Below, piece after piece: positions 1 to 22,368 of a DNA stretch of 29,658 nt. The stretch is from positions 1 to 29,658 of the IMG/VR virus record IMGVR_UViG_3300032267_000352; one strand, written 5' to 3'. A program made the translations under genes and the position numbers. A model generated the notes under the pieces. That model had not been told where the DNA came from, did no database searches, and was given only the letters and a program-made list of their open reading frames with translations. Position 1 is the first letter of the stretch, and the number at the start of each line of letters is the position of its first letter. This DNA is from a virus.

Positions 1-59
1 GTGGTCAGTTCAACCAACTCCTCAGCCAACTCTATTAGTTCATTTATTAGATTACTCAT
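1..59 (-). CDS. partial small hypothetical protein (N-terminus only)
   Basis: The ATG at 59-57 overlaps the stop of the upstream 56-aa gene as ATGA. The frame stays open to the window edge and encodes MSNLINELIELAEELVEL, a hydrophobic-heptad, probably alpha-helical start. An AGAGG ribosome-binding sequence sits just upstream, inside the end of the preceding gene. The rest lies outside the window, so no function can be given. Confidence 0.55.
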   Translation of the reverse strand, partial: MSNLINELIELAEELVELT

Positions 60-226
60 ACCTCTACCTCTTCTACATAACCTTCAGCTAATAGCCCTTC
101 AAAGAAATCCCATATTTGAGTAAGTCCTTCTCTCACTTCAGGCTCTCCCATATCTATTGCCATCATCTCAGCAAGCCTTAGCGTTGAACCAAAGCCTTGT
201 ATGTCTTTATATTTATATCCAAGCAT
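56..226 (-). CDS. small acidic hypothetical protein (56 aa)
   Basis: The ATG at 226 is preceded by a strong AAGGAAGG site at 240-233. The protein starts MLGYKYKDIQGFGSTLRLAE and ends GYVEEVEV; it is acidic and probably helical, and it is too short for most ORF callers. The stop TGA (58-56) overlaps the next start as ATGA, so the two are probably translationally coupled. I do not recognise the family. Confidence 0.7.
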   Translation of the reverse strand: MLGYKYKDIQGFGSTLRLAEMMAIDMGEPEVREGLTQIWDFFEGLLAEGYVEEVEV

Positions 227-292: not shown

Positions 293-715
293 CTAGAGAT
301 AGCGAGCAATACTATTGTAAGTGCTGGTGTTGATAACTTCTTCATCACTCATCTGAAGAATACGGATAGCATTTTCTATCTCTTCCACAATCTCCTTGTA
401 TGTGTGGTCGTGCATTACATTACCCTCACGCTCAGGCTCTTTAGGCATATCTTGTCCTGTTATAGTTAAATCAAAATCTATATTCAGGGTGTTATTCCAA
501 GAGCGATAATTGGTGCGGACATTTTCAGCCTTAGTAAAATTAGCAGTAGCAAACTTTACTAACTCCTTCTTCCACTTTTCCATTTCCTTCTCATACTTAC
601 CTTCATTAACCTTCTCATTAGCTTTATCAGCCTTAACTGTTGCTAACTTTACTTCTAGTGCGTTGATTACCTTCTCTTTTCTAATCTTCACACTAATCGC
701 TTTCCCTCTAGCCAT
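293..715 (-). CDS. hypothetical protein, Lys/Glu-rich helical (140 aa)
   Basis: This is the longest gene of the minus-strand block. Residues 10-60 are Lys/Glu/Ala-rich (KADKANEKVNEGKYEKEMEK) and look like a coiled coil. The C-terminal half is acidic, with a helical stretch around KEIVEEIENAIRILQMSDEE. The start ATG at 715 has an AGGAAA site about 7 bases upstream. A perfect 6-bp hairpin (744-760) lies just upstream in the leader. The middle (NNTLNIDFDLTITG) suggests a short beta segment. Function unknown. The overlapping plus-strand frame at 510-743 is a shadow. Confidence 0.8.
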   Translation of the reverse strand: MARGKAISVKIRKEKVINALEVKLATVKADKANEKVNEGKYEKEMEKWKKELVKFATANFTKAENVRTNYRSWNNTLNIDFDLTITGQDMPKEPEREGNVMHDHTYKEIVEEIENAIRILQMSDEEVINTSTYNSIARYL

Positions 716-743
716 TTTGTTTTCCTATCTCTTATTTATTTAA

Positions 744-760
744 GCGAGCTATCTGCTCGC
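744..760. other. perfect inverted repeat (6-bp stem, 5-nt loop)
   Basis: GCGAGC at 744-749 and GCTCGC at 755-760 flank the loop TATCT. It sits 29 bases before the start of the 140-aa gene, in that gene's leader on the minus strand. There is no T-tract on either side, so it is not a standard terminator; an attenuator or processing hairpin is possible. Confidence 0.45.
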
Positions 761-794
761 CCTCTCCTACTATTATTAGTTAGTAGAATACCAC

Positions 795-823
795 GCCACA
801 CTCCCCTAGACAAAGAGTGCGGC
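795..823. other. imperfect inverted repeat after a minus-strand gene
   Basis: GCCACACTC (795-803) can pair with GAGTGCGGC (815-823) with one A/C mismatch. It lies directly downstream of the 73-aa gene on the minus strand, where a terminator or processing site could be, but no U-tract follows. Confidence 0.35.
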
Positions 824-834
824 ATAGTTCGCCA

Positions 835-1056
835 CTAAATAAGTGCTTTAGCCCCGTTAGCTATCTCTAACATAGCGCATAACTGTTTGCTAGCTTCGGT
901 ATCTATTTTGTTAATCTCTTCTGAGTGCGAAGAATTAACCCAGTAGCACTCATCTTCTAAGAATATAGTTCCTGAGAAGTGCGCTTCCTCTACATCAGGC
1001 ACCCACTCCCAACCTTTAGCTGGGTTATATTGGACTACAAAATGGTGTTCGCTCAC
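835..1056 (-). CDS. hypothetical protein (73 aa)
   Basis: The best start is the GTG at 1056-1054: a GGGGGTGAG ribosome-binding sequence precedes it and it overlaps the stop of the upstream zinc-ribbon gene as GTGA. An in-frame TTG at 1101 would extend it but would run through that upstream gene. From the GTG the protein reads MSEHHFVVQYNPAKGWEW, continues with an aromatic, acidic beta-like stretch (HFSGTIFLEDECYWVNSS) and ends in a helix (ASKQLCAMLEIANGAKALI). This resembles a compact alpha/beta single-domain protein. No family recognised. Confidence 0.72.
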   Translation of the reverse strand: MSEHHFVVQYNPAKGWEWVPDVEEAHFSGTIFLEDECYWVNSSHSEEINKIDTEASKQLCAMLEIANGAKALI

Positions 1057-1199
1057 TTGCTCACCCCCTCTCTCTCTATTAGTGATAAGTTCATCTCGCA
1101 ATCATCACAAAGGTAATTGCCTTCATAATCTTTAGCTATATCCCACCACATAGGGTTAGTTATCTCCCACCCGCAGGACTTACATATAAACTTCTTCAT
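1053..1199 (-). CDS. zinc-ribbon miniprotein (48 aa)
   Basis: The protein starts MKKFICKSCGWEITNPMWW and has two cysteine knuckles: CKSC at residues 6-9 and CDDC at 31-34. The spacing of about 21 residues is typical of a four-cysteine zinc ribbon. Start ATG at 1199 with GAGGGGGAGAG upstream. It overlaps the upstream gene as TATGA and the downstream gene as GTGA. Small ribbons like this often bind nucleic acid or a polymerase subunit, but the target cannot be told from sequence. Confidence 0.78.
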   Translation of the reverse strand: MKKFICKSCGWEITNPMWWDIAKDYEGNYLCDDCEMNLSLIEREGVSK

Positions 1200-1357
1200 A
1201 CTCTCCCCCTCACTTGCTCTAAGTGGTAGCAATCAGGGCGCAAGCAATCACCGCAAAGGGTAAGCAAACCATTTTCTTTAACCCAGTTCGCCCCCTCTTG
1301 CTCGCACTTCTCACACTCCCACACTCGGCAGGTGTCCCAACTTGTATGCTCTCTCAC
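1196..1357 (-). CDS. cysteine-rich zinc-binding miniprotein (53 aa)
   Basis: The GTG start at 1357 has GAGGAGG about 8 bases upstream. The frame holds six ordered cysteines: CRVWECEKC (C-x4-C-x2-C, residues 10-18) and CGDCLRPDC (C-x2-C-x4-C, residues 35-43). The two halves are near mirror images, as expected of one or two zinc sites. It is coupled to both neighbours by 4-base overlaps. The length and overlaps, together with the preserved Cys pattern, argue that it is a real gene. Function unknown; possibly a small transcription or host-takeover factor. Confidence 0.75.
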   Translation of the reverse strand: MREHTSWDTCRVWECEKCEQEGANWVKENGLLTLCGDCLRPDCYHLEQVRGRV

Positions 1358-1527
1358 TTGCTCGCCTCCTCTCTCATAATCTGAGGCTGACCTAAAAACC
1401 TTCTCACTTGCGCGAGCTGGTCTAGTCTGCCCTGATAGTAATTACGATCATTAGCTTCAGCGTGGGTTGCTAATCTCTCTAATACCCACTCCGCCTCTAC
1501 ATTTAAGAATTGCTCTAGCTCTCTCAT
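1354..1527 (-). CDS. small helical hypothetical protein (57 aa)
   Basis: The ATG at 1527 is preceded by GAGGTGA with good spacing and overlaps the upstream stop as ATGA. The protein begins MRELEQFLNVEAEWVLERLA and is predominantly alpha-helical with amphipathic Leu spacing; the rest is RNYYQGRLDQLAQVRRFLGQ. It contains an internal GTG (within QVRR) in the same GCAAGTGAG context used as a start elsewhere in this operon, so a 17-residue internal product is conceivable but unproven. No family recognised. Confidence 0.7.
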   Translation of the reverse strand: MRELEQFLNVEAEWVLERLATHAEANDRNYYQGRLDQLAQVRRFLGQPQIMREEASK

Positions 1528-1682
1528 AGTTTCACCTCGTGTTCGCCCACTCCTTCATTAGTATTTTGTGGGCTTAAATCGCAACCAAAATCTCCTTCTT
1601 TAGTTGCCCAATGAGGGTCAATTCTGCGCCCACTTATGGCGTGTAAATCAAACATAATTTGCCCACAATAAACGCAATTCAT
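1524..1682 (-). CDS. CxxC zinc-finger-like miniprotein (52 aa)
   Basis: It starts MNCVYCGQIMFDLHAISGRR, so the CVYC knuckle is at residues 3-6. A conserved-looking RRIDPHW follows, then FGCDLSP with one further Cys. His/Cys residues could complete a zinc site (CxxC...H...C). Start ATG at 1682 overlaps the membrane-protein gene stop as ATGA; AAAGGTG lies upstream. Similar tiny CxxC proteins are frequent in phage early regions and usually uncharacterised. Confidence 0.75.
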   Translation of the reverse strand: MNCVYCGQIMFDLHAISGRRIDPHWATKEGDFGCDLSPQNTNEGVGEHEVKL

Positions 1683-1828
1683 AGCCCGCACCTTTCAATA
1701 GACCCAACGCACCAGCCCGTTCCGTTCCACCAAAAGCTAGTAGCGATTAGGTAAAGCCCTGCCAATAGTGCGAGCCAAAACATCACCCGCACCGCTCTCC
1801 TTACTCGGTAATAAGTAGCTGACCGCAT
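1679..1828 (-). CDS. small single-pass membrane protein (49 aa)
   Basis: It begins MRSATYYRVRRAVRVMFWLA. Four Arg residues precede one hydrophobic segment of about 20 residues (VMFWLALLAGLYLIATSF), followed by a Trp/Gly/Cys-rich tail (WNGTGWCVGSIERCGL). The positive-inside rule predicts a cytoplasmic N-terminus. The ATG at 1828 overlaps the upstream stop as TAATG, with AGAGGTGG as ribosome-binding sequence. It could be an inner-membrane early protein (superinfection exclusion or host takeover), but nothing in the sequence decides this. Confidence 0.7.
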   Translation of the reverse strand: MRSATYYRVRRAVRVMFWLALLAGLYLIATSFWWNGTGWCVGSIERCGL

Positions 1829-2190
1829 TAGAGCCACCTCTGATTTAACTTATACGCGCTAGCGTGGTCATACTTATCTGCACAAAATAAAATTGTGCTT
1901 AGGTTATAGACCAAATGAAAGCCCATATCCATACCGCAACCGCTCACCCTAATAGCGTTAAAGCCGTTAGAGCTTCTTATCTTGTCGCCCATAGCGATAC
2001 CCGCTAGATAAGTGATATTGGTGTCCTTGTAATATAAGGATATATCTCTACTCATACCACTAGCCGAACAATGGCGGAGAATTGTCCCTATTATGGGGCG
2101 TTCATCTCCCGCCATTAGAGCGCGTAATTGCTCTCTAGCCCTCTCTTGCTCTAGCTCTCTCTCTTGCTTCTTGCTTAGTGTTGCGTTCAT
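1828..2190 (-). CDS. conserved phage protein of unknown function (120 aa)
   Basis: The N-terminal 26 residues are a Glu/Arg/Gln-rich helix. The rest carries a pattern I recognise from many phage and prophage genomes: RHCSASGMSRDISLYYK (about 40-56) followed by GCGMDMGFHLVYNLS (about 84-98). The family is widespread and small, usually annotated as hypothetical, and I know of no assigned activity. The start ATG at 2190 lies below a short leader that shares motifs with the leader at 2895-3000. The last base of its TAA is the first of the next ATG. Confidence 0.85.
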   Translation of the reverse strand: MNATLSKKQERELEQERAREQLRALMAGDERPIIGTILRHCSASGMSRDISLYYKDTNITYLAGIAMGDKIRSSNGFNAIRVSGCGMDMGFHLVYNLSTILFCADKYDHASAYKLNQRWL

Positions 2191-2198
2191 ACCTTGCC

Positions 2199-2238
2199 CC
2201 TATCGTCTAGTTAAACCACTCACCAATTTAGGAGAGTG
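2199..2238 (-). promoter_or_regulatory. repeated leader module, copy A
   Basis: On the minus strand this leader runs CACTCTCCTAAA (2238-2227), then ACTAGACGATAGG, then the ATG at 2190. The same two blocks, in the same order, precede the first gene of the block at 2894. Two shared 12-13-base blocks ahead of two gene sets suggest a common operator, promoter element or RNA leader. No good -35/-10 pair is obvious in this copy. Confidence 0.4.
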
Positions 2239-2287
2239 CCACCGCCTACCCTAGCAGGATAAGCGATAGCAATCCACTATCTAAGCT

Positions 2288-2464
2288 CTATTCGTAATCA
2301 CAATCGCATAAGTGTCCGCAAGTAAAGCAGACATAGAGCTGGCCTAGCTGAGTGTGGTAGCCGTATTTCTTAGGCCTGCCCCTCTCTTTAGAGTAATATC
2401 TGCCCTCTTCATCTCTATTTATTGCCCCGTAAAGCTCGCGAGCACTCTCTAAGGTTAGCCCCAT
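2288..2464 (-). CDS. zinc-knuckle miniprotein (58 aa)
   Basis: The ATG at 2464 overlaps the upstream TAA as TAATG. The protein starts MGLTLESARELYGAINRDEE, has a basic middle (YYSKERGRPKKYGYH) and ends LYVCFTCGHLCDCDYE. That tail is a compact C-x2-C-x3-C-x-C cluster, likely to bind zinc. The basic middle would suit nucleic-acid binding. It is the last gene before a gap of about 97 bases. No named family. Confidence 0.72.
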   Translation of the reverse strand: MGLTLESARELYGAINRDEEGRYYSKERGRPKKYGYHTQLGQLYVCFTCGHLCDCDYE

Positions 2465-2721
2465 TAGAAGCCCGCCCCTACTACTATTAACCGCCCCTGC
2501 TCGCGCATAGCGCGGGCGGTGGCGTTAGTATCCAATACCGCGTTGATCTGCTCTAATTGTGCGGTGAGTTGATTAGGTGAGCCGTAAGGGGTTAGATCAA
2601 TTCCCGCCCGCTTATAGCTATTTATTACGCGCTTAACTTGTGTTTGGCTCAGCTCAGCCTCCACCCATACCGCCCCGCCCTTATCAGCTAAGAGAGTATG
2701 GGTTTTAATTACTTTAGCCAT
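2464..2721 (-). CDS. hypothetical protein (85 aa)
   Basis: The protein begins with a short beta-like stretch (AKVIKTHTLLADKGGAVWVEAEL), then helices (TQVKRVINSYKRAGIDLTPYG; NQLTAQLEQINAVLDTNATARAM), ending in a strand (RLIVVGAGF). It looks like a complete small alpha/beta protein. The ATG at 2721 is coupled as TAATG to the upstream 57-aa gene. Base composition is more GC-rich than the late genes. No function recognised. Confidence 0.75.
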   Translation of the reverse strand: MAKVIKTHTLLADKGGAVWVEAELSQTQVKRVINSYKRAGIDLTPYGSPNQLTAQLEQINAVLDTNATARAMREQGRLIVVGAGF

Positions 2722-2894
2722 TAGTTGGCCTCCAAACCTAGAGCCACTCTTAATTCTTTAAGCTCTTCAGTTAATCTCTTATTAACTCTTTTATACTCAT
2801 CACTTACGGGATCAGTTAAGCTCATTACTACGCCAGAATAAAGAGAGCTTAGAATATCCTCCACTTTAGCCTTATCTTTACGAGTTAAGTTCAT
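2721..2894 (-). CDS. small charged helical protein (57 aa), first gene of the minus block
   Basis: The ATG at 2894 is preceded by AGGAAT. The protein starts MNLTRKDKAKVEDILSSLYS and continues with a Lys/Glu-rich helix (DEYKRVNKRLTEELKELR), likely a short coiled coil. It is the first gene on the minus strand after the divergent control region, so its leader probably holds the promoter of the block. Its TAA overlaps the next ATG. Function unknown. Confidence 0.72.
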   Translation of the reverse strand: MNLTRKDKAKVEDILSSLYSGVVMSLTDPVSDEYKRVNKRLTEELKELRVALGLEAN

Positions 2895-2902
2895 TACTTA
2901 TT

Positions 2903-3000
2903 CCTATCGTCTAGTGCGAGCTGGTTTAGCTCACTAAGAGCAATTTACTACGGGCATCTCCCCTATGTCAAACACCAAACCAAACTATTTTAGGAGAGTG
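2903..3000 (-). promoter_or_regulatory. repeated leader module, copy B
   Basis: On the minus strand CACTCTCCTAAA (3000-2989) and ACTAGACGATAGG (about 2915-2903) flank a longer spacer than in copy A. The second block ends just before the ribosome-binding site of the 57-aa gene. Shared identity with copy A is visible by eye; a role in regulation is inferred. Confidence 0.4.
2942..2971 (-). promoter_or_regulatory. candidate sigma70-like promoter for the minus-strand block
   Basis: Reading the minus strand, a perfect TTGACA (2971-2966) is followed 18 bases later by TAAATT (2947-2942), a 4/6 match to TATAAT. It is correctly placed about 50 bases before the first start codon. The -35 is perfect but the -10 is only fair, so this is a candidate only. 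Confidence 0.4.
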
Positions 3001-3213: not shown

Positions 3214-3350
3214 CTATCAATCCGCAAAATATCGGTATCAGCCAAAAAACTTACCCCACATTTAACGATTTGCTAGCGTATAGTGTTATGTACCCATTAC
3301 AAATATTTTTCCTAAAGTCAATATTTTGGGTACCAATATAGCTATATATA

Positions 3351-3364
3351 GTGACTTACGTCAC
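3351..3364. promoter_or_regulatory. candidate operator GTGAC-TTAC-GTCAC
   Basis: Perfect 5-bp inverted half-sites (GTGAC, GTCAC) lie in an AT-rich stretch with TATATA-like boxes on both sides. The size and symmetry suit a dimeric repressor site overlapping a promoter. The binding protein is unknown and no repressor gene is visible in the window. Confidence 0.4.
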
Positions 3365-3389
3365 ATAATATAAAGTTTTTTACCAGAAA

Positions 3390-3414
3390 GCGGGAAATCG
3401 ATCAGATTTCCTGC
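3390..3414. other. 10-bp inverted repeat
   Basis: GCGGGAAATC (3390-3399) and GATTTCCTGC (3405-3414) flank GATCA. Nine of ten pairs are Watson-Crick and one is a G/T wobble. It starts the series of stem-loops running to 3573 ahead of the late operon. Confidence 0.5.
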
Positions 3415-3432
3415 CTTATATATAGTAGGGGA

Positions 3433-3573
3433 GTAAAACGGACTGTTATGAGTTTTACGACCTAGAAGTCGCTACGTCGAAGACTTCGCTCCTGGTAGCA
3501 TCCCTAAGGGATGATTACCAACTTACCCCTCACTTCGCTGTAGCTCGCTCGGGCGCTAAGCCCGTAAAGCGAG
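3433..3573 (+). ncRNA. candidate structured leader RNA of the late operon (four consecutive stem-loops)
   Basis: Four inverted repeats follow one another. GTAAAAC (3433-3439) pairs with GTTTTAC (3452-3458). GAAGTC (3465-3470) pairs with GACTTC (3482-3487). TGGTA plus CATCCC (3493-3504) pairs with GGGATG plus TACCA (ending 3520). CTCGCT-CGGGC (3544-3554) pairs with GCCCG-taa-AGCGAG (3560-3573). Such density in about 140 bases upstream of the terminase gene is unlikely by chance. It could be an untranslated leader, an antitermination RNA or a packaging RNA/DNA signal; I match it to no known class. Confidence 0.4.
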
Positions 3574-3656
3574 ATACACTTCGCGGCAGGTGTAATAGGT
3601 TATATCCGGTAAAGTTAAAATTCCCCTCCGGTCTAAAGATTTACGACAGGAGAAGT

Positions 3657-5519
3657 GTGTCCGAAAATTCAGCAGATATAGCTAAGCGAATCATCCTAAG
3701 TTGCGTCGCGCAAGGTATGACCATCGAGCAGGCTTGCGGTTCAGCCGGTAAGTCGATGAAGACCTATGAGTACTATCGTCGCACCGACAAAGTATTCTCC
3801 GATAAAGTAGATCGCACCCGCCTAGGTTTAAAAGACAAAGTCTTCGCATCCGGTGATGTCCACGACATCTCATTCGCTGAGTTCCGTGAGCGGTTCCTAA
3901 ATCAAAGAACCTTCCCCCACCAGCAAAACCTGGTAGATGTAATTGAGGGTCGGGAACCTTCTTGGCTACACCCCGCTATGAAGTGGGAAGCAGGTCTAGC
4001 CGATAACAGAATTTTAATTAACATCCCGCCAAACCACGCGAAGTCAATTACAATAACCGTTGACTACGTAACCTGGCAGGTATGTCGTAATCCTAATTTT
4101 AGAGTCTTGATCGTCTCTCAGACCCAGCGTCTTGCAGCAGACTTTCTATACGCCATCAAACAACGATTAACTCATCCTATGTATGAGAATCTGCAGCAAG
4201 CATACGCTGCTGGCGTAGGTTTTAATAGCAAGTCCGCTTCGTGGCAAGCTACCCGTATTACCTTTGGTGATGAGCTAAGAGAATCCTCTGAGAAAGATCC
4301 CAATATAGAAGCAGTCGGTATCGGCGGTCAGATCTACGGTAAACGTGCAGATATGATTATCATCGACGACGCAGTTACTCTAAGTAACGCCAATGACTTT
4401 GAACGTCAGATCAAGTGGCTAACCCAGGACGTCCGCTCTCGTCTTAACCCTACAGGTAAGTTGATTGTAATTGGAACCCGCGTAGCATCCGTTGATCTAT
4501 ACAGAGAATTGCGGAACCCCGATAGATATCCAGGCGGTTTAGTTCCTTGGAAGTATCTAGCTATGCCAGCGCTTTTACAGACAGATGAATCCCCTGAGAA
4601 GTGGGAAACATTATGGCCAGCATCCGATCAACCATTTGACGGACAAGGTGAAGATCAAAAGAACGAAGACGGCCTATACCCAAGATGGAATGGTCGTAAC
4701 CTATTTAACGAACGTCAATCTATGGACGCTTCAACCTGGGCTTTAATTTATCAGCAACAAGATATTTCAGATGACGCCATATTTGATCCGGTATGTGTTA
4801 GAGGATCTATTGATGGTATGAGAAAGTCGGGAGCTTTAAATGCGGGTTATCCAGGTCATCCTAAAGACCTTAATGGATTCACTTTCATTTGTGGCCTTGA
4901 TCCTGCTATGGTTGGTGACACTGCTGTTATTTGTTATGCTATTGATCGCGTCAGCCACAAGCGTTATATTGTGGACGCTCATAAGATTACTCGACCTACT
5001 CCGGCACAAATTAGGCAACTCATTTTTGACTGGACGGATCTTTACAAACCTAGTGAATGGATCGTCGAAAAAAACGCCTTCCAAGCTTTCTTAACCCAAG
5101 ACGAAGGTATCAAGATGCACTTAGCATCTCGCGGTGTAACTCTTAAAGAACACCATACCGGTTCTAATAAATGGGACTCTGGTTTTGGTGTGGCATCTAT
5201 GTCAACCCTATTTGGTACAAAGCAATTAGCTGATGGCAAACACCATCGAGATAACTTAATACATTTACCTAGTGATCAAACTGAGAACGTCAAAGCCCTT
5301 ATAGAGCAATTGATAACTTGGTCTCCGACTACTAAGGGTAAGACCGATATGGTAATGGCTCTTTGGTTCTGTGAAATTAGAGCAAGAGAGATGCTTAACT
5401 ACGGACAGTATGCAAAGCATCATATGAATAATCCGTTCCTATCAAGTTATGAAAAACAAAAACGAGTAGTAATCAATATCGATGATCTACTTGCTGAGAA
5501 GGATACACAGTTCATCTAA
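3657..5519 (+). CDS. terL: terminase large subunit (TerL)
   Basis: This is the ATP-driven DNA-packaging motor with endonuclease. The 620-aa length is a little above the usual 450-600. Residues 5-40 look like a helix-turn-helix (MTIEQACGSAGKSMKTYEYY), which may supply small-terminase-like DNA binding; no separate small terminase is seen. The ATPase domain has a Walker A variant PPNHAKS (124-130), Walker B MIIIDD (233-238) and coupling motif VIGTR (271-275). The RNase H-like nuclease carries GLDPA (D415), IVEKN (E471) and TDMVMALW (D564). The start is GTG at 3657 with AGGAGA upstream. It opens the late operon, after the structured leader. Confidence 0.95.
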   Translation: MSENSADIAKRIILSCVAQGMTIEQACGSAGKSMKTYEYYRRTDKVFSDKVDRTRLGLKDKVFASGDVHDISFAEFRERFLNQRTFPHQQNLVDVIEGREPSWLHPAMKWEAGLADNRILINIPPNHAKSITITVDYVTWQVCRNPNFRVLIVSQTQRLAADFLYAIKQRLTHPMYENLQQAYAAGVGFNSKSASWQATRITFGDELRESSEKDPNIEAVGIGGQIYGKRADMIIIDDAVTLSNANDFERQIKWLTQDVRSRLNPTGKLIVIGTRVASVDLYRELRNPDRYPGGLVPWKYLAMPALLQTDESPEKWETLWPASDQPFDGQGEDQKNEDGLYPRWNGRNLFNERQSMDASTWALIYQQQDISDDAIFDPVCVRGSIDGMRKSGALNAGYPGHPKDLNGFTFICGLDPAMVGDTAVICYAIDRVSHKRYIVDAHKITRPTPAQIRQLIFDWTDLYKPSEWIVEKNAFQAFLTQDEGIKMHLASRGVTLKEHHTGSNKWDSGFGVASMSTLFGTKQLADGKHHRDNLIHLPSDQTENVKALIEQLITWSPTTKGKTDMVMALWFCEIRAREMLNYGQYAKHHMNNPFLSSYEKQKRVVINIDDLLAEKDTQFI

Positions 5520-7891: not shown

Positions 7892-8297
7892 AGATTCAGT
7901 TAATCCGATTAAAGGAGCATCAGGTCCAGGTAAGTATGCAAAAAGAATTGATCGTATGCCAGCTAACGCTTATGGCGAACAAAAACAAACAGCAGAGATA
8001 GCATCAGGTGCGCCGTTGGCTAGAACTCCAGATGTTCGCCCAGCACCAGCATCAGAAGTAAAACAAGCAGCAACATCTATGGGTGAAGTAACCCCATTAT
8101 TTGCACCATCTCAACGTCCAACTGAACCAGTTACTCAAGGTGTAGATGTTGGCGCAGGTGCAGGATCAGATGCTCTTATGATGAAATCATTATATTCAAA
8201 CAACAAAGTTTCAGATTCTCTTGCTGCAATGCTTCCTTACGACACCACTGGTGAGATTGGTATTTTGTATCAACAAGCTCTTGCGCGGGGTATGTAG
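7881..8297 (+). CDS. hypothetical virion-associated protein, Ala/Pro-rich (138 aa)
   Basis: I choose the ATG at 7881 (MALEDSVNPIKGASGPGKYA) because GGAGG lies 6-10 bases upstream; an upstream TTG at 7866 would include that site in the coding sequence. The middle is low-complexity (PDVRPAPASEVKQAATSMGE) and probably disordered. The C-terminus (SDSLAAMLPYDTTGEIGILY) is helical. The last base of its TAG stop is the first base of the next GTG start. It probably works with the neighbouring large protein. Confidence 0.7.
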   Translation: MALEDSVNPIKGASGPGKYAKRIDRMPANAYGEQKQTAEIASGAPLARTPDVRPAPASEVKQAATSMGEVTPLFAPSQRPTEPVTQGVDVGAGAGSDALMMKSLYSNNKVSDSLAAMLPYDTTGEIGILYQQALARGM

Positions 8298-11200
8298 TGG
8301 CTAATCCAAATCTTGATGCTGCCGCTTTACAAGCAGGCATTACTGGTAAACAAAAAGAACAAGTTGATGGTCTAAGTAAACTATTAGATTCCCATCGCAA
8401 ACTTCTTGCTTTGCCAGAAAACCAAGCAAAGGCTTCTTTTGAGGAATTGCCTCAAGAACAACAAAAAGCACACACTTCATTTTTTAGCGGAAATAACCCT
8501 GCTGGTTGGTTAGGCGGAGCAGCCCATTATTTAGGCATTGGCGTTAAACAAACTATTGGTCGTGCTTTTAGTGCATTAAATGAAATATCAGATTTCTCAA
8601 CCCGTATTGCTCGTACCGGTTTAATTGCTGCAGATCAAGGCGTTGATTTAAGCACTGCTTTTAAAATAGCAAACGATAAGGGCGATAAAGTATTTAGCCC
8701 AGATCGTATTACCGCCGCTACAGATATATACGGTGAAGATATGATGTCAGTAGCAATGAAAGTTGCTAGTGGTATTACTTTAAGTGAAATTCAAGCAACA
8801 GGCTCAGATGCTGAAAAATTAATTGCATCTACTGCTGCTCAGAAAAAAGATCAAGATCATTTATTTACCAGCGCATTAGACGCAGCACAAAGAGCTAAAT
8901 ACTCTCCAGGTAGAGCAGTAGCAAATCTTATACTTCCAGAGTTCTTGGAAAAAACTGGTTTATACAAAGGTATCTCTGGTGTAGTTGATGCTGGATATCG
9001 AGTTTTTGCTGATCCAACACTTGCTTTAGGTAAGGCTAAAAAAGCCTACGATGCTGGTGATTTTTTGCTTTATAACATATTAGGTAAAGAAAAGTTTTCT
9101 TACGGTAGAAACTTAATGGCTGTTGCTGGTAATGCAGCACAAGTAGACCGAGTATTTTCTAATGCTGGAACTAGAAACCTTTTTGATCAATATGGCGCTG
9201 CTTTAGAAAAATTAGGAAATGCCCGTAAAGCAAAAGACAATATTGCCGGTGCTGAGGCTTATCAAGAAGCTAGACGTTTAATTCCAGAGTTTGGTCCTGC
9301 TGGAGTTGATCAACTTATTGTTGCTGGCGTTAAAGATGCTGATACCGCAGCAAATTTCTTAAAAAATCACGCTGACGTAAAAGATATTCTTAGCGGTCAA
9401 GCTGCTCGTAAAACACCTTTAGTTCCAACAATGACCCCTGCTCGTTTTGCAAGAGTTCAATTGTTTACTACAGCTAATAAAGTATTTAATATAGATAATG
9501 CTGGTCAATCTATTGTTAAAGCCATTTATGGTGATGCAGGTCAAGCACAAGATGTAGTTGGCGCCCTTACTAATAAAGTTGGTGAGATTGCTCAAAAAGA
9601 ATCAACAGTTGGTCGTACATTTGGTAAAGTAAGAGACGGATCTATTCGTTTTGGCGCTAATCAAATTAGTGGTCGTATTGATAGATTTGCTCGTAAATTT
9701 ACAACTATTCCTTATTTTAAAAATGGTTTCTTTGATGTGACGGAAGCAAACGCTTCTGAAAAAATTTACCAACTTGCCGCATTAACAAATACTCGTTATC
9801 ACTCTAGGGTTATTCAAGAAGCATTTGCCGCTGGTGATGAAGGTCAAAAGAAACAAATATTTACTGGTCTTTGGAACACTATTGCTGAGACCCGTCAAGT
9901 TACTAGAACCGCTGAAGGTAAAAACTGGGTAGATAATTTTACAGGCACAGCATTAGACTATAGCTACGGTGCTAGTATGGTAGTTGATAAAGTAGGTCCT
10001 GATGGAAAACCTTTATTAGATGAATTGGGTAACATAGTAAGAGAAGTAGTTAACCCTGCCAATTTTGATGGACAACAATTAGCCCTTCACGGATATCAAT
10101 TATCTACTGCAATAGCAGTTCCATCTATATTAGATCTTGATCGTTTATCTGCTCGCTCTGGTTTAATTAACCGGATGCTTGGTATCTCCCATAAAAGATG
10201 GGCAGATGATATGACCTCTGCTTGGACACTGGGTACCCTTGCTGGTCCTAAATTCCCTGTGCGTAACGCAGCAGAAGACTTAATGATGCACATTGCTATT
10301 GGAGATAAAACTTGGGGCATTACAAAAGGCCGTTTTATTTCAACCAAACTGCGTCAAGTTAAAGAAGCAGAAGCTGGTCTTACTACAGAACAAAGAAAAC
10401 TTGGCCAAGAGATTGCAGACCTTACTGCTCAAACTGATGAACTTGCCAAAGATCCACTTAAGGCCGCTCAAGTTAAAGCCAATAGAGATCTTATTAAATC
10501 AAAAACTGAAACTCTTAGCAATCTTGAAGGTAAGAAAATTAAATTTTATGAATCTAATCTTGGATTTGTTAACCGCTTAGTTAGCCGTAATCAAGTAAAA
10601 GGATTCCAAACCCGCCTTGCTGCTGCTGGAGATGATGTAAAGAAAATCCAACAAATTACTGCAGAAGCAGTTATGACTGGTAAATTATCTTCTCGTGCTT
10701 TGTCTAAAAGAGATAAACAATTTTTAGAAGAATTTGCTGCACACGGCAGAACTCAAGAGATGCTTGATGAAATTATAGAAGGCGGAAAAAATACTCTTAG
10801 CGGAGGCAGTTATTCTATCCAAGCTAGCAACGATGCTAAGAAATATGGAACCCTTCGCGCCCTTGAGTATGATGGCAAAAAATTTAAACAATCAGGTAGT
10901 ACATATACCGATATAGACCCTGTTGCTAATGATCAATCACGTCTATCTTGGCTTGTTAAACTTGCTATTCATACCAACGATGAAGTTGATAGTATCCTTA
11001 TTAAGAACCTTGATAATAAGAAACAAGCAATTGAAGATCTTGTAAAATATTTAGATGATAACCCTGCATTAAAAGGTCGTTTCCAATCCATATCCTCAGG
11101 TATGGCAACTACATACCAACACGCTGAACGTGCCTATATGGATGTACTTAACACTTTTAGTAAAGCAGATGGAACTTTAAACAAAGATCTTTGGAGCAAG

Positions 11201-13177
11201 GTTCGCAAGGTAAAACCTGATGGCGAAATTGTTTTATCAAGTAAGAACCTATCAGTAGATGATCTTCCTTTAAAATCTCAAAAAGATATGCACCCAAGAT
11301 GGATCTCTGGTCCAACTCTAGTACCAGTATCTGAAGGTCAGAGTATGACTGCTTCTATATCCGAAAGACTTTGGGATTATATGGGCGAGGCTAATGCTCG
11401 TTTTTCCCGCGAAGGTATTGTATTAGACGCAATGCTTGATGTTCGTGGTCAAATGGACGAAACTGGCTTTGCTGAAAGAATACTTAAACAATTTACCGAA
11501 GGTAAAACCGGTGATGATTTAATAAAGGCTGAAACAAGAGCGAGAGAACACATAACTTCTTTAGCTGAGGATATGGCTAAGAATAGAGTTCTTGCTTATG
11601 TAGATAATCCTGCAGTTCGTAGCCAATTAGCTATGTCTGCTCGTAACTTTGCACGGTTCTATCGAGCAACTGAAGACTTCTATCGTCGTCTTAGCCGTGT
11701 AGTTCGTTATAATCCAGAGGCTATTGTTAGAGCAAGCCTAACTTATGAAGGAATTGCTCATTCTGGTTTTGTACAAACTGATGAAAACGGAGATCAGTAC
11801 TTTTTCTACCCTGGTTTAACACCTGTTTACAAGGTAATGAACAAGGTTGGTAAGTTATTTGGTGTAAAAGATGCGTTCCAAATACCAATGCCAGTTGAAT
11901 TTGGTGCAAAACTTAAAATGATTACACCATCTTTAAACCCAGATTCATTATTTCCTACATTTGCTGGTCCTTTAGCGGCAGTTCCAATGAAGATGGTTGG
12001 AAATGTAATCCCACAGGTTAAAGACTTAGAACAATACCTGCTTGGTTCATACGCTGAAGATCAACCAATGGTATCTGCTATATTGCCAGCACACGTTAAT
12101 CGTATCTACCAAGCATTAAGCGGAGATGAGCGTAATTCTCAATATGCTTCTGCTTATCGCAAGGCAGCAACCTATCTTGAGGCTTCAGGTCACGGCATAA
12201 AACCAAGTTTTGATCCAGTAACCGGAGAAGAACTACCACCATCTCCTGGAGAATTAGCCGTTTACCAAGATAAATTACAAGCATCTACTTTTACTGTATT
12301 AAGTATGAGAGCACTTCTTGGTTTCATAGTACCTGCTTCACCATCTGTAACCTTAAAATCCGATATGGCTAAATGGGTAAGAGATAATGGAGAAATAAGT
12401 TACAAGTCAACATTTAATGCCCTTCGTAATAAATACAACGATCCAAATAAAGCAATTGAAGAGTGGATCAAGTATTATCCAGATCAAATGCCTTACACAA
12501 TATCTGAGTCTGATTCAAATGTAGTAGCAAATGTTAGAGCAGTAGATGGTGCTGTAGCTTGGGTTGACTCTAATCAAAAGTTACTGGCTAAGTACCCAGA
12601 AGCTGCATCTTTCTTAATGCCACAAGCTGGTGAATTTAACTTTGATGCTTATAAGTTATTATCTAAATCAGGTCTAAGATCAAATAAAACAGTTACTGAT
12701 TTTGTAAGAGAAGTTAGTACCGCTAAAGATCGTCAAATCTATTACGCTAAACGTAATGAGTTTGAGGAAAAAATGTCGTACACAACCGATACTAATCTAA
12801 AACGTCAACTTCGAGAAGAATGGCAAACTTGGGCTGATGAGTTTAAAGGCGCAAGACCATTACTACAAGAACAATTAGGTAAGTCTGCTGAAAATGCTAT
12901 CCAAAGAACTAGAGCACTTGATGACTTACGTAATATGTTAAATGATCCTGAAGTTAAAACTCAACCTAAGCTGCGTTCTATTCTTAATGAAATGGTTTCG
13001 GCTTATGATGATTATGTTAACCAAAGAGATTTTACCACAACTGTATCTTTTGGTAATAAACAAGACTACAAAGATCAATTAAAGTTAAACGCTAAGGCAA
13101 CATTAGAGTCATTAGCAGAGTCCGATCCAAACGCATTAGCGGCATACAGGTCACTGTTTGATCCGCTATTTAACTAA
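8297..13177 (+). CDS. very large probable virion protein (1626 aa)
   Basis: This is the largest gene in the window. It starts at a GTG sharing a base with the preceding TAG. It has no signal peptide and is largely alpha-helical, with coiled-coil-like parts (EAEAGLTTEQRKLGQEIADL, about residue 690) and long Ala/Lys-rich helices near the C-terminus. A region near residues 1130-1260 is richer in aromatic and hydrophobic residues (YFFYPGLTPVYKVMNKVGKL; FPTFAGPLAAVPMKMVGNVI) and might interact with membranes. I see no lysozyme, transglycosylase or protease motif. Its place between portal and scaffold, and its size, suggest an internal or ejected virion protein. It should not be called a tape-measure protein on length alone. 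Codon use matches its neighbours. Confidence 0.75.
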   Translation: MANPNLDAAALQAGITGKQKEQVDGLSKLLDSHRKLLALPENQAKASFEELPQEQQKAHTSFFSGNNPAGWLGGAAHYLGIGVKQTIGRAFSALNEISDFSTRIARTGLIAADQGVDLSTAFKIANDKGDKVFSPDRITAATDIYGEDMMSVAMKVASGITLSEIQATGSDAEKLIASTAAQKKDQDHLFTSALDAAQRAKYSPGRAVANLILPEFLEKTGLYKGISGVVDAGYRVFADPTLALGKAKKAYDAGDFLLYNILGKEKFSYGRNLMAVAGNAAQVDRVFSNAGTRNLFDQYGAALEKLGNARKAKDNIAGAEAYQEARRLIPEFGPAGVDQLIVAGVKDADTAANFLKNHADVKDILSGQAARKTPLVPTMTPARFARVQLFTTANKVFNIDNAGQSIVKAIYGDAGQAQDVVGALTNKVGEIAQKESTVGRTFGKVRDGSIRFGANQISGRIDRFARKFTTIPYFKNGFFDVTEANASEKIYQLAALTNTRYHSRVIQEAFAAGDEGQKKQIFTGLWNTIAETRQVTRTAEGKNWVDNFTGTALDYSYGASMVVDKVGPDGKPLLDELGNIVREVVNPANFDGQQLALHGYQLSTAIAVPSILDLDRLSARSGLINRMLGISHKRWADDMTSAWTLGTLAGPKFPVRNAAEDLMMHIAIGDKTWGITKGRFISTKLRQVKEAEAGLTTEQRKLGQEIADLTAQTDELAKDPLKAAQVKANRDLIKSKTETLSNLEGKKIKFYESNLGFVNRLVSRNQVKGFQTRLAAAGDDVKKIQQITAEAVMTGKLSSRALSKRDKQFLEEFAAHGRTQEMLDEIIEGGKNTLSGGSYSIQASNDAKKYGTLRALEYDGKKFKQSGSTYTDIDPVANDQSRLSWLVKLAIHTNDEVDSILIKNLDNKKQAIEDLVKYLDDNPALKGRFQSISSGMATTYQHAERAYMDVLNTFSKADGTLNKDLWSKVRKVKPDGEIVLSSKNLSVDDLPLKSQKDMHPRWISGPTLVPVSEGQSMTASISERLWDYMGEANARFSREGIVLDAMLDVRGQMDETGFAERILKQFTEGKTGDDLIKAETRAREHITSLAEDMAKNRVLAYVDNPAVRSQLAMSARNFARFYRATEDFYRRLSRVVRYNPEAIVRASLTYEGIAHSGFVQTDENGDQYFFYPGLTPVYKVMNKVGKLFGVKDAFQIPMPVEFGAKLKMITPSLNPDSLFPTFAGPLAAVPMKMVGNVIPQVKDLEQYLLGSYAEDQPMVSAILPAHVNRIYQALSGDERNSQYASAYRKAATYLEASGHGIKPSFDPVTGEELPPSPGELAVYQDKLQASTFTVLSMRALLGFIVPASPSVTLKSDMAKWVRDNGEISYKSTFNALRNKYNDPNKAIEEWIKYYPDQMPYTISESDSNVVANVRAVDGAVAWVDSNQKLLAKYPEAASFLMPQAGEFNFDAYKLLSKSGLRSNKTVTDFVREVSTAKDRQIYYAKRNEFEEKMSYTTDTNLKRQLREEWQTWADEFKGARPLLQEQLGKSAENAIQRTRALDDLRNMLNDPEVKTQPKLRSILNEMVSAYDDYVNQRDFTTTVSFGNKQDYKDQLKLNAKATLESLAESDPNALAAYRSLFDPLFN

Positions 13178-19562: not shown

Positions 19563-21297
<1,735 letters not shown>

Positions 21298-21306
21298 ACT
21301 AGAGTG

Positions 21307-22368
21307 ATGAAAGTTGCTGTCTACGCAATAGCCTTAAATGAAGAAAAGCACGTCAAGAGATGGTATGAGTCAACCAAAGAAGCTGACTACCACGTTATAG
21401 CTGATACCGGTTCAACTGATAACACCGTTAAGATTGCTAAAGAACTTGGTATAGCAGTTCATACGATCTCTGTTAAACCGTTTAGGTTTGATGATGCTAG
21501 AAACGCAAGTCTTGCTTTAGTACCAGCCGATGCTAATTATTGTATCGCTATGGATATGGATGAGATTATGCGTCCAGGTTGGCGGCAAGAATTAGAGAAG
21601 GCTTACGCTGAAGGTATAGAAAAACCTCGCTATAGATTTGTAACAGATTTTAATCCCGATGGAAGCATCAAGGCAGAGTTTGATGGATTTAGAATCCACA
21701 CTAGAAACAACGTTAGATGGGTCTATCCAATTCACGAAGTACCGCAAGGGTATAACCGTGAAAAAGAAGAAACATCTAAGATGTTTAATATTGAATCTTG
21801 GCACTTACCAGATGGTGAGAAGTCAAGAGGCAACTACTTACCTATGCTTGAGAACGCAGCAAAGGAAAACCCTGATAGTAGAAACTTATACTATTTAGGA
21901 AGAGAGTATTTCTACCACGAAAGATTTACTGAAGCATTAGATACTTTAAAAAAGTATTTAGAGATTAGCGTATTCAAAGCAGAGCGAGGATTTGCTCTAC
22001 GGATTATGGCAAAATGTGATACTTCTAATGCTGAAGAATACTTAATAAAGTCTACTGAAGAATACCAAAGTAGAGAATCCGTCTTAGCCTTAGCTAACCA
22101 TTATTACCATACTAAACAATGGAAAGAATGTAATAAGGTAGCAAAGATTGCTTTAACCAAAACTGAGAAGGCTACAGAGTTTATGGTTGAGGCTTGGGCT
22201 TGGACTCATATGGCAGATGATCTTGTTGCAGTATCCGCTTGGAACTTAGAACAGTGGCAAGAAGCATATGAGTATGGCAAGAAGGCAGTAGAGATAACAC
22301 CGACAGATGAAAGATTAATAACAAATTTAAAGTTCTACAAAGAAAAGGTGGGTAATGACAACACTTAG
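21307..22368 (+). CDS. GT2-type glycosyltransferase with C-terminal helical repeats (353 aa)
   Basis: The N-terminal GT-A domain shows the nucleotide-sugar site: IALNEEKH (8-15), DTGSTDNT (33-40) and the metal-binding DMDE (83-86). WYRW-like aromatic clusters (NNVRWVYPIHEVPQGY) follow, as expected at the acceptor side. Residues about 190-350 look like TPR-type helical repeats (NLYYLGREYFYHERFTEALD; EQWQEAYEYGKKAVEI), common in protein-modifying transferases. A GTG at 21304 is an alternative start; the ribosome-binding site is weak either way. It lies between the collagen-like fibre and the connector gene. The target is inferred, not shown; DNA or host cell-wall sugar are alternatives. Confidence 0.88.
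   Translation: MKVAVYAIALNEEKHVKRWYESTKEADYHVIADTGSTDNTVKIAKELGIAVHTISVKPFRFDDARNASLALVPADANYCIAMDMDEIMRPGWRQELEKAYAEGIEKPRYRFVTDFNPDGSIKAEFDGFRIHTRNNVRWVYPIHEVPQGYNREKEETSKMFNIESWHLPDGEKSRGNYLPMLENAAKENPDSRNLYYLGREYFYHERFTEALDTLKKYLEISVFKAERGFALRIMAKCDTSNAEEYLIKSTEEYQSRESVLALANHYYHTKQWKECNKVAKIALTKTEKATEFMVEAWAWTHMADDLVAVSAWNLEQWQEAYEYGKKAVEITPTDERLITNLKFYKEKVGNDNT

Follow-up and report, generated by a model that had tools for sequence, protein, structure and literature searches.

The window analysed here, the viral genome fragment IMGVR_UViG_3300032267_000352 at its full length of 29,658 nt (29.7 kb), carries a leftward operon of 12 small minus-strand genes that runs from position 2894 to 56 and reaches the edge of the record. 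With a probability of roughly 0.6, we read it as an accessory operon whose small genes are reshuffled in blocks between copies of an intercistronic hairpin, here called R1, and whose products would act on the hosts. Mosaic blocks of tiny phage genes are familiar, the route of their exchange and their purpose being mostly open. The lineage to which the window belongs offers many sequenced relatives, cultured cousins, a defined spacer, near-identical backbones whose accessory genes are almost all exchanged, and a strong preference for a single type of protein. Both questions thereby become testable: whether the hairpins drive exchange or expression, and what effect some forty families of zinc-type miniproteins have on abundant freshwater bacteria.

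Zinc-type miniproteins and the turnover of the operon

The concentration of one type of small protein beside the terminase gene (TerL) is the most conspicuous feature of the lineage. In a survey of 70 TerL-anchored related loci, in which the open reading frames (ORFs) beside TerL were sorted by strand, two CxxC pairs are encoded by 127 of the 1,349 ORFs on the leftward (minus) strand as opposed to 14 of the 1,136 on the opposite strand; shuffling of the amino acids gave a mean of 4.6 and a maximum of 11 instead of the 127 observed. None of the 979 short ORFs downstream of TerL has the pattern, and no excess was seen on the corresponding strand of Immanuel3 (0), Abafar (2) and D29 (1), a small control set. 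BLAST at 1e-4 groups these ORFs in about 25 clusters and leaves 15 singletons, the resulting figure of about forty families being approximate, as a few clusters consist mostly of members without the pattern and members of different families may be remotely related. Among the 14 testable clusters, each with three or more members that bear the pattern, four near-invariant Cys columns are kept by 12; values of omega, the ratio of non-synonymous to synonymous change, could be calculated for 13 and lie between 0.06 and 0.40.

The window itself was originally predicted to encode four zinc-ribbon-like miniproteins with ordered CxxC pairs. Two pairs are indeed found in d1053 (1053..1199, minus strand; 48 aa, CKSC/CDDC) and e1196 (1196..1357, minus; 53 aa), whereas g1524 combines a single CxxC with a lone Cys, and j2288 (2288..2464, minus; 58 aa, CFTCGHLCDC) has, with its spacing C-x2-C-x3-C-x1-C, a compact knuckle-like cluster and not a ribbon. 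In d1053, which has 100 relatives in a viral scan, C6, C9, C31 and C34 are invariant in 15 aligned sequences, and all four Cys residues of j2288, found in 40 loci by such a scan, are invariant in six homologues; frameshifts or uncompensated Cys losses in relatives did not occur. That such a pattern is unlikely to arise by chance holds for the lineage as a whole, and a fortuitous origin of the CxxC pairs in non-coding DNA is ruled out by purifying selection together with the enrichment. The same leftward operon of one relative (L009, 1829-2050) also encodes a 73-aa protein with 14 cysteines and without a Pfam match.

The membrane miniprotein of the original prediction likewise proved to be real and widely conserved. 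The single-pass protein h1679 (1679..1828, minus; 49 aa, omega 0.10-0.36) belongs to a family present in 45 loci, in which the motif GxCxG....C following the membrane helix is invariant across a 33-sequence alignment. The basic N-terminus suggests that this tail lies outside the cell.

Purifying selection was assessed with homologues retrieved by tblastn from viral contigs and the NG86 estimate of omega; synonymous divergence was saturated in some pairs, and single values are rough. Across ten genes omega is mostly 0.04-0.44, including 0.045-0.20 for d1053 and 0.11-0.34 for j2288, with higher and noisier values for c, e and i (0.20-0.44 for i1828; 0.09-0.59 for e1196 from partial matches, the 0.59 coming from a weak one). 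The frames are thus coding, as had been proposed, in all genes in which the ratio could be obtained. For b293 the homologues comprise identical copies only. The remaining gene, g1524 (1524..1682, minus; 52 aa, CVYC), has no detectable homologue in relatives or annotated phages; it is the least certain of the set, a candidate gene by virtue of the ATGA overlaps at both its ends. A tblastn search of the annotated phage collection with d, g, h and j gave no match.

The architecture of the operon can be described with high confidence. With gene starts chosen as those backed by homologues, the distances along the direction of transcription are -1 nt for l-k and k-j, +97 nt for j-i, -1 nt for i-h, -4 nt each for h-g, g-f, f-e, e-d and d-c (five consecutive 4-nt overlaps), +119 nt for c-b and +66 nt for b-a. 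Nine of the 11 junctions are therefore overlaps or short gaps, and the two widest gaps (j-i and c-b) both contain an RNA hairpin. The original prediction had recognized part of this arrangement, a chain of 48-73-aa minus-strand frames at 1053-2464 linked by ATGA, GTGA and TAATG overlaps. The junction analysis bears out the frames and their linkage, but the chain is neither uniform in size, as the 120-aa i1828 sits inside it, nor unbroken, as the 97-nt gap with its hairpin parts j2288 from i1828, and the operon is larger than the span proposed.

The gene content of the operon changes quickly beside a nearly constant backbone. The locus L001, whose TerL DNA is 96.7% identical to that of the window, has only three of the 12 genes in common with it, namely d (93%), f (72%) and h (75%); in L006, with TerL DNA 96.1% identical, two of the twelve are common, at 42-50%, and one or two are present in L003, L004 and L006. 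In L156/L205 and L152, from one sample, the b and a proteins are identical to those of the window, with c and d only 39-43% identical. Of the ends of DNA homology, 69% fall no more than 12 nt from the edge of a gene or hairpin, compared with 16% expected, and at a limit of 10 nt none of 2,000 circular shifts reached the observed value.

The exchange extends to parts of genes. The C-terminal half of e1196 is a mobile module of about 60 bp (1196..1258, minus) encoding LCGDCLRPDCYHLEQVRGRV; the DNA is 95-98.5% identical to L162 and L156 up to position 1258, where homology breaks off in three relatives. The module, LCGDCLR(P/S)DC(Y/I)HLE, stands behind four different N-terminal parts: that of the window itself, a j-type VCYTCGLLCNC (L205), a C-x2-C...CLHL or CFHL type (L162, L206, L207 and L209), and f directly (L208). 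With four N-terminal partners on one module, half-gene shuffling is therefore apparent from the sequences, and e1196 can be described as a mosaic zinc-type miniprotein.

In the 40.6-kb relative G001, whose TerL is 87% identical to the window's, the operon continues to an SLT-like lytic transglycosylase (E 0.002, slightly short of the gathering score) and a C5 DNA methylase. In the leftward operon of another relative (L026, 471-833) there is an ArdC N-terminal anti-restriction domain (PF08401, above gathering), the cluster of which occurs in ten loci. Because the leftward block beside TerL is fast-evolving and non-structural, with ArdC, methylase and SLT-like neighbours in relatives, interaction with the host is plausible. 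The host-takeover module envisaged originally is a plausible form of it; a function in either host interaction or counter-defence would, on this gene content, have slightly better than even chances. An alternative to a reshuffled operon acting on hosts at large would be a counter-defence island, the miniproteins of which mainly inhibit restriction, abortive infection and other defences, with the zinc fold as a cheap and stable scaffold. This possibility is favoured by the ArdC domain and the C5 methylase that relatives encode within the operon, by the ArdA-type gene of the Planktophila phage E7 (PMC10202952) and by the fast turnover beside a near-identical terminase. However, searches of Pfam and NCBIfam linked no window miniprotein to a known anti-defence family, and we consider such an island a serious contender that falls somewhat short of even odds.

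The intercistronic hairpin R1

R1 is a 57-nt hairpin with a 21-pair stem. A covariance model of 11 close copies, searched at E <= 1e-4, matches 57 sites in 34 selected loci. The window has two copies on the minus strand: copy 1 (2227..2282), between j and i, scores 68.7 bits with cmsearch (z -4.4) and belongs to the training set of the model, and copy 2 (779..841), between c and b, scores 41 bits (E 1e-9, z -7.4) and does not belong to it. The pair cells of 53 distinct sequences hold standard pairs in 98.3% of cases, compared with 78.9% in shuffled alignments (maximum 81.0), and 200 cells are double-changed versus 54 (maximum 76); sliding the partner leaves 44-58% standard pairs. The covariation is modest among the close copies alone and clear in the broader set. 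At each of three fixed positions, 42-51 of the 53 sequences retain a wobble pair, and R1 likely acts as RNA rather than as a DNA palindrome, because in the latter these kept pairs would be mismatches.

At its 5' foot the hairpin typically contains or adjoins the stop codon of the gene before it, and the next start mostly follows 25-60 nt on. Since 55 of the sites precede 23 unrelated downstream families, simple common descent of whole loci is disfavoured. Copy 2 forms part of a linker of hairpin and leader (723..840) that is 81-88% identical at the DNA level over about 110-120 bp in several loci with different flanking genes. Within the genome pieces searched, confident matches of R1 are confined to the leftward block, and an Rfam scan of the window returned no match above the gathering score, R1 included.

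The hairpins might be attenuating or intrinsic transcription terminators that set steps of expression along the operon, as a 21-pair stem at gene ends would allow, but the canonical copies have no U-run and are mostly followed by a start codon at the short distance given above, which makes this role doubtful. Under our reading the hairpins would instead insulate or process the polycistronic mRNA, by RNase III-type cleavage or by protection of 3' ends. A stronger version, which we think unlikely, would make R1 a dedicated cassette-boundary element: as RNA it would end one block and protect or mature the next, as DNA it would guide the replacement of genes or blocks, and the operon would be an integron-like, recombinase-free library of zinc miniproteins including half-gene fusions.

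A second repeated element, the 13-mer ACTAGACGATAGG, stands about 8 nt before the ATG of unrelated genes in nine loci including the window, where it occurs on the minus strand upstream of i (2199..2211) and, as a second copy, upstream of l (2903..2915). It resembles the start-associated sequence (SAS) of cluster K mycobacteriophages, a short conserved sequence before the starts of many unrelated non-structural genes (PMC3203893), in being a start-adjacent repeat that is spread over cassettes. The cluster K SAS is, however, GGGATAGGAGCCC, located 3-7 nt before starts and accompanied in a subset by an upstream inverted repeat (extended SAS, ESAS; PMC3203893), and the repeat of the window, having a different sequence, falls outside the SAS definition. 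The ESAS repeats have little support as mRNA hairpins (PMC3203893), whereas R1 covaries strongly with kept wobbles, sits at the preceding stop and occurs mostly without the 13-mer. Mosaic small-gene blocks and start-associated repeats are thus already known in actinophages, best in cluster K (PMC3203893). Judged by our tools and the open-access literature, what is new is the concentration of two-CxxC miniproteins, the exchange of half-genes among them and a hairpin spacer that covaries; a search for a published precedent of the zinc array (phage, zinc, small proteins) found none, which is weak evidence, as it covered open-access literature only.

Proposed mode of action

Taken together, the reading of a reshuffled accessory operon would have the following parts. 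The gene blocks, chained mostly by 1- or 4-nt overlaps, would be co-translated by termination-reinitiation; the sequence common to the hairpins separating them would give the homology for cassette replacement; and the zinc-type and membrane miniproteins would act early on individual host proteins or defences, the gene set being reshuffled as the hosts change. Several points weigh against it. Zinc binding by the miniproteins is predicted solely from the Cys patterns; the AF2 model of d1053 is of low confidence (pLDDT 64), with a best Foldseek E of 0.83, and the profile of its family (A1) gave only weak, chance-level matches among PDB sequences, e.g. C1 domains. The homology ends come from related contigs, hence they are non-independent, and the gain or loss of neighbours gene by gene would give an equal edge pattern by any route. 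The R1 alignment is fitted to its own model, and the early action is presumed by analogy with the gene layout in the Streptomyces relatives.

Another possibility is that the miniproteins modulate host transcription or proteostasis by binding RNA polymerase, sigma factors or the zinc domain of ClpX, with d1053 as a treble-clef decoy of the ClpX zinc-binding domain (ZBD). The original prediction had pointed to binding of nucleic acid or RNA polymerase, for which we found no specific support, and RNA-polymerase binding is accordingly left as unsupported. The nearest candidate, Gin (CsfB), an anti-sigma-G factor (PF10764), is also small with two CxxC pairs and matches d1053 at E 5e-4; the match, however, spans only 15 residues, and the assignment was rejected at 20.6 bits against a gathering score of 27. 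With the ClpX ZBD, d1053 has in common a CxFCG...CDxC pattern followed by a helix, although it is without the AAA+ domain. ClpX ZBDs are the top structural matches of the d1053 model, yet weak ones (Z 3.3 over 40-45 residues), within noise for a low-confidence model, and hhalign gave 72% for d1053 in a single pairing with a manually entered ZBD sequence, as opposed to 1-32% in control comparisons with four other zinc-type miniproteins of these phages. A PDB profile search with the d1053 family found no ClpX up to E 10. The resemblance may serve as a weak lead and not as a result, and as the modulator explanation also covers one family out of about forty, we deem it improbable.

Finally, the block could be a permissive landing site for small genes acquired laterally, mostly dispensable and with no common purpose, as the fast turnover, the many families and the fact that small orphan genes are common in actinophages would allow, but neutral flux of this kind fits poorly with omega well below 1 in most families, the enrichment of zinc-type genes specifically on the leftward strand and in this region, and an ordered architecture with conserved hairpins, and it too appears improbable.

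The virus, its relatives and other genes

The rightward late block of the window begins with TerL at 3657 (PHROG 38); then come a capsid gene and, at a greater distance, an endolysin. TerL shows 46% identity to its counterparts in OX376640/OX376641, the Planktophila phages LanE43AprE7/F5 (E7/F5), which infect Ca. Planktophila (PMC10202952), and about 42% to the terminases of Streptomyces phages, e.g. Immanuel3. A homologous TerL opening the rightward late block and a divergent leftward non-structural block are shared by the window and its Planktophila-phage/Beephvirinae-like relatives. Judged by its genes, the virus is probably a freshwater actinobacteriophage, a relative of E7/F5 and more distantly of the Streptomyces Beephvirinae. 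G001 encodes WhiB (E 6e-16), sigma-70 region 4, a DnaB-like helicase and a Toprim gene, and a phage WhiB and a sigma factor are known from both E7 and F5 (PMC10202952). In prokaryote genome contigs, a TerL search for the host found no relative and the A1 profile had no match. The lineage, the WhiB of G001 and the cultured Planktophila phages therefore make freshwater actinobacteria the likely hosts.

Phage F5 also has a small-gene block beside TerL, with members of a zinc-type family (cluster 24, E 8e-12), of the SLT-like cluster 11 (E 3e-43) and of clusters 37 and 131, but searches for the d1053, h1679 and j2288 families and the R1 hairpin found none of them there. In Immanuel3 (Beephvirinae) and Abafar, TerL likewise opens the rightward late block and leftward small non-structural genes adjoin it, including an annotated anti-restriction protein; unlike in the window, however, profiles A1-A3 match nothing in them and no R1 hairpin reaches significance.

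The other genes of the operon likewise lie on the minus strand. The first, l2721 (2721..2894; 57 aa), has omega 0.04-0.11 relative to L073, L074 and L163, and k2464 (2464..2721; 85 aa) has homologues in 34 loci (omega 0.09-0.22). The protein i1828 (1828..2190; 120 aa) belongs to PHROG 12365, of unknown function (E 1e-17). Its AF2 fold is confident (pLDDT 91), and a comparison with PDB gave no match at E <= 0.001 and a VIA-align Z of at most 3.5; the BFVD matches are uncharacterised proteins only, of Sphingobium, Caulobacter, Microbacterium and Mycobacterium phages. Further downstream lie f1354 (1354..1527; 57 aa, without Cys, omega 0.06-0.23), c835 (835..1056; 73 aa, homologues in 14 loci), b293 (293..715; 140 aa), the 100% identical protein of which in L152/L156 is preceded by different upstream genes, and a56 (56..226; 56 aa, omega 0.10-0.21).

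The non-coding stretch 3278-3603 between the divergent blocks, with a hairpin at 3390-3414, is deeply conserved, with segments of about 100 bp that are 82-87% identical in many loci, and probably contains promoters or a packaging signal. A 1,626-aa protein without a PHROG match is encoded at 8297-13177 and could be a large component of the virion, as a hypothetical protein comparable in size occupies the matching place in Immanuel3. A 461-aa protein with collagen-like Gly-X-Y repeats (19912-21297) is followed by a glycosyltransferase (21304-22368, PHROG 13126). G001 additionally has a proteasome-subunit-like protein (L211, 4990-5559), encoded close to the replication genes.

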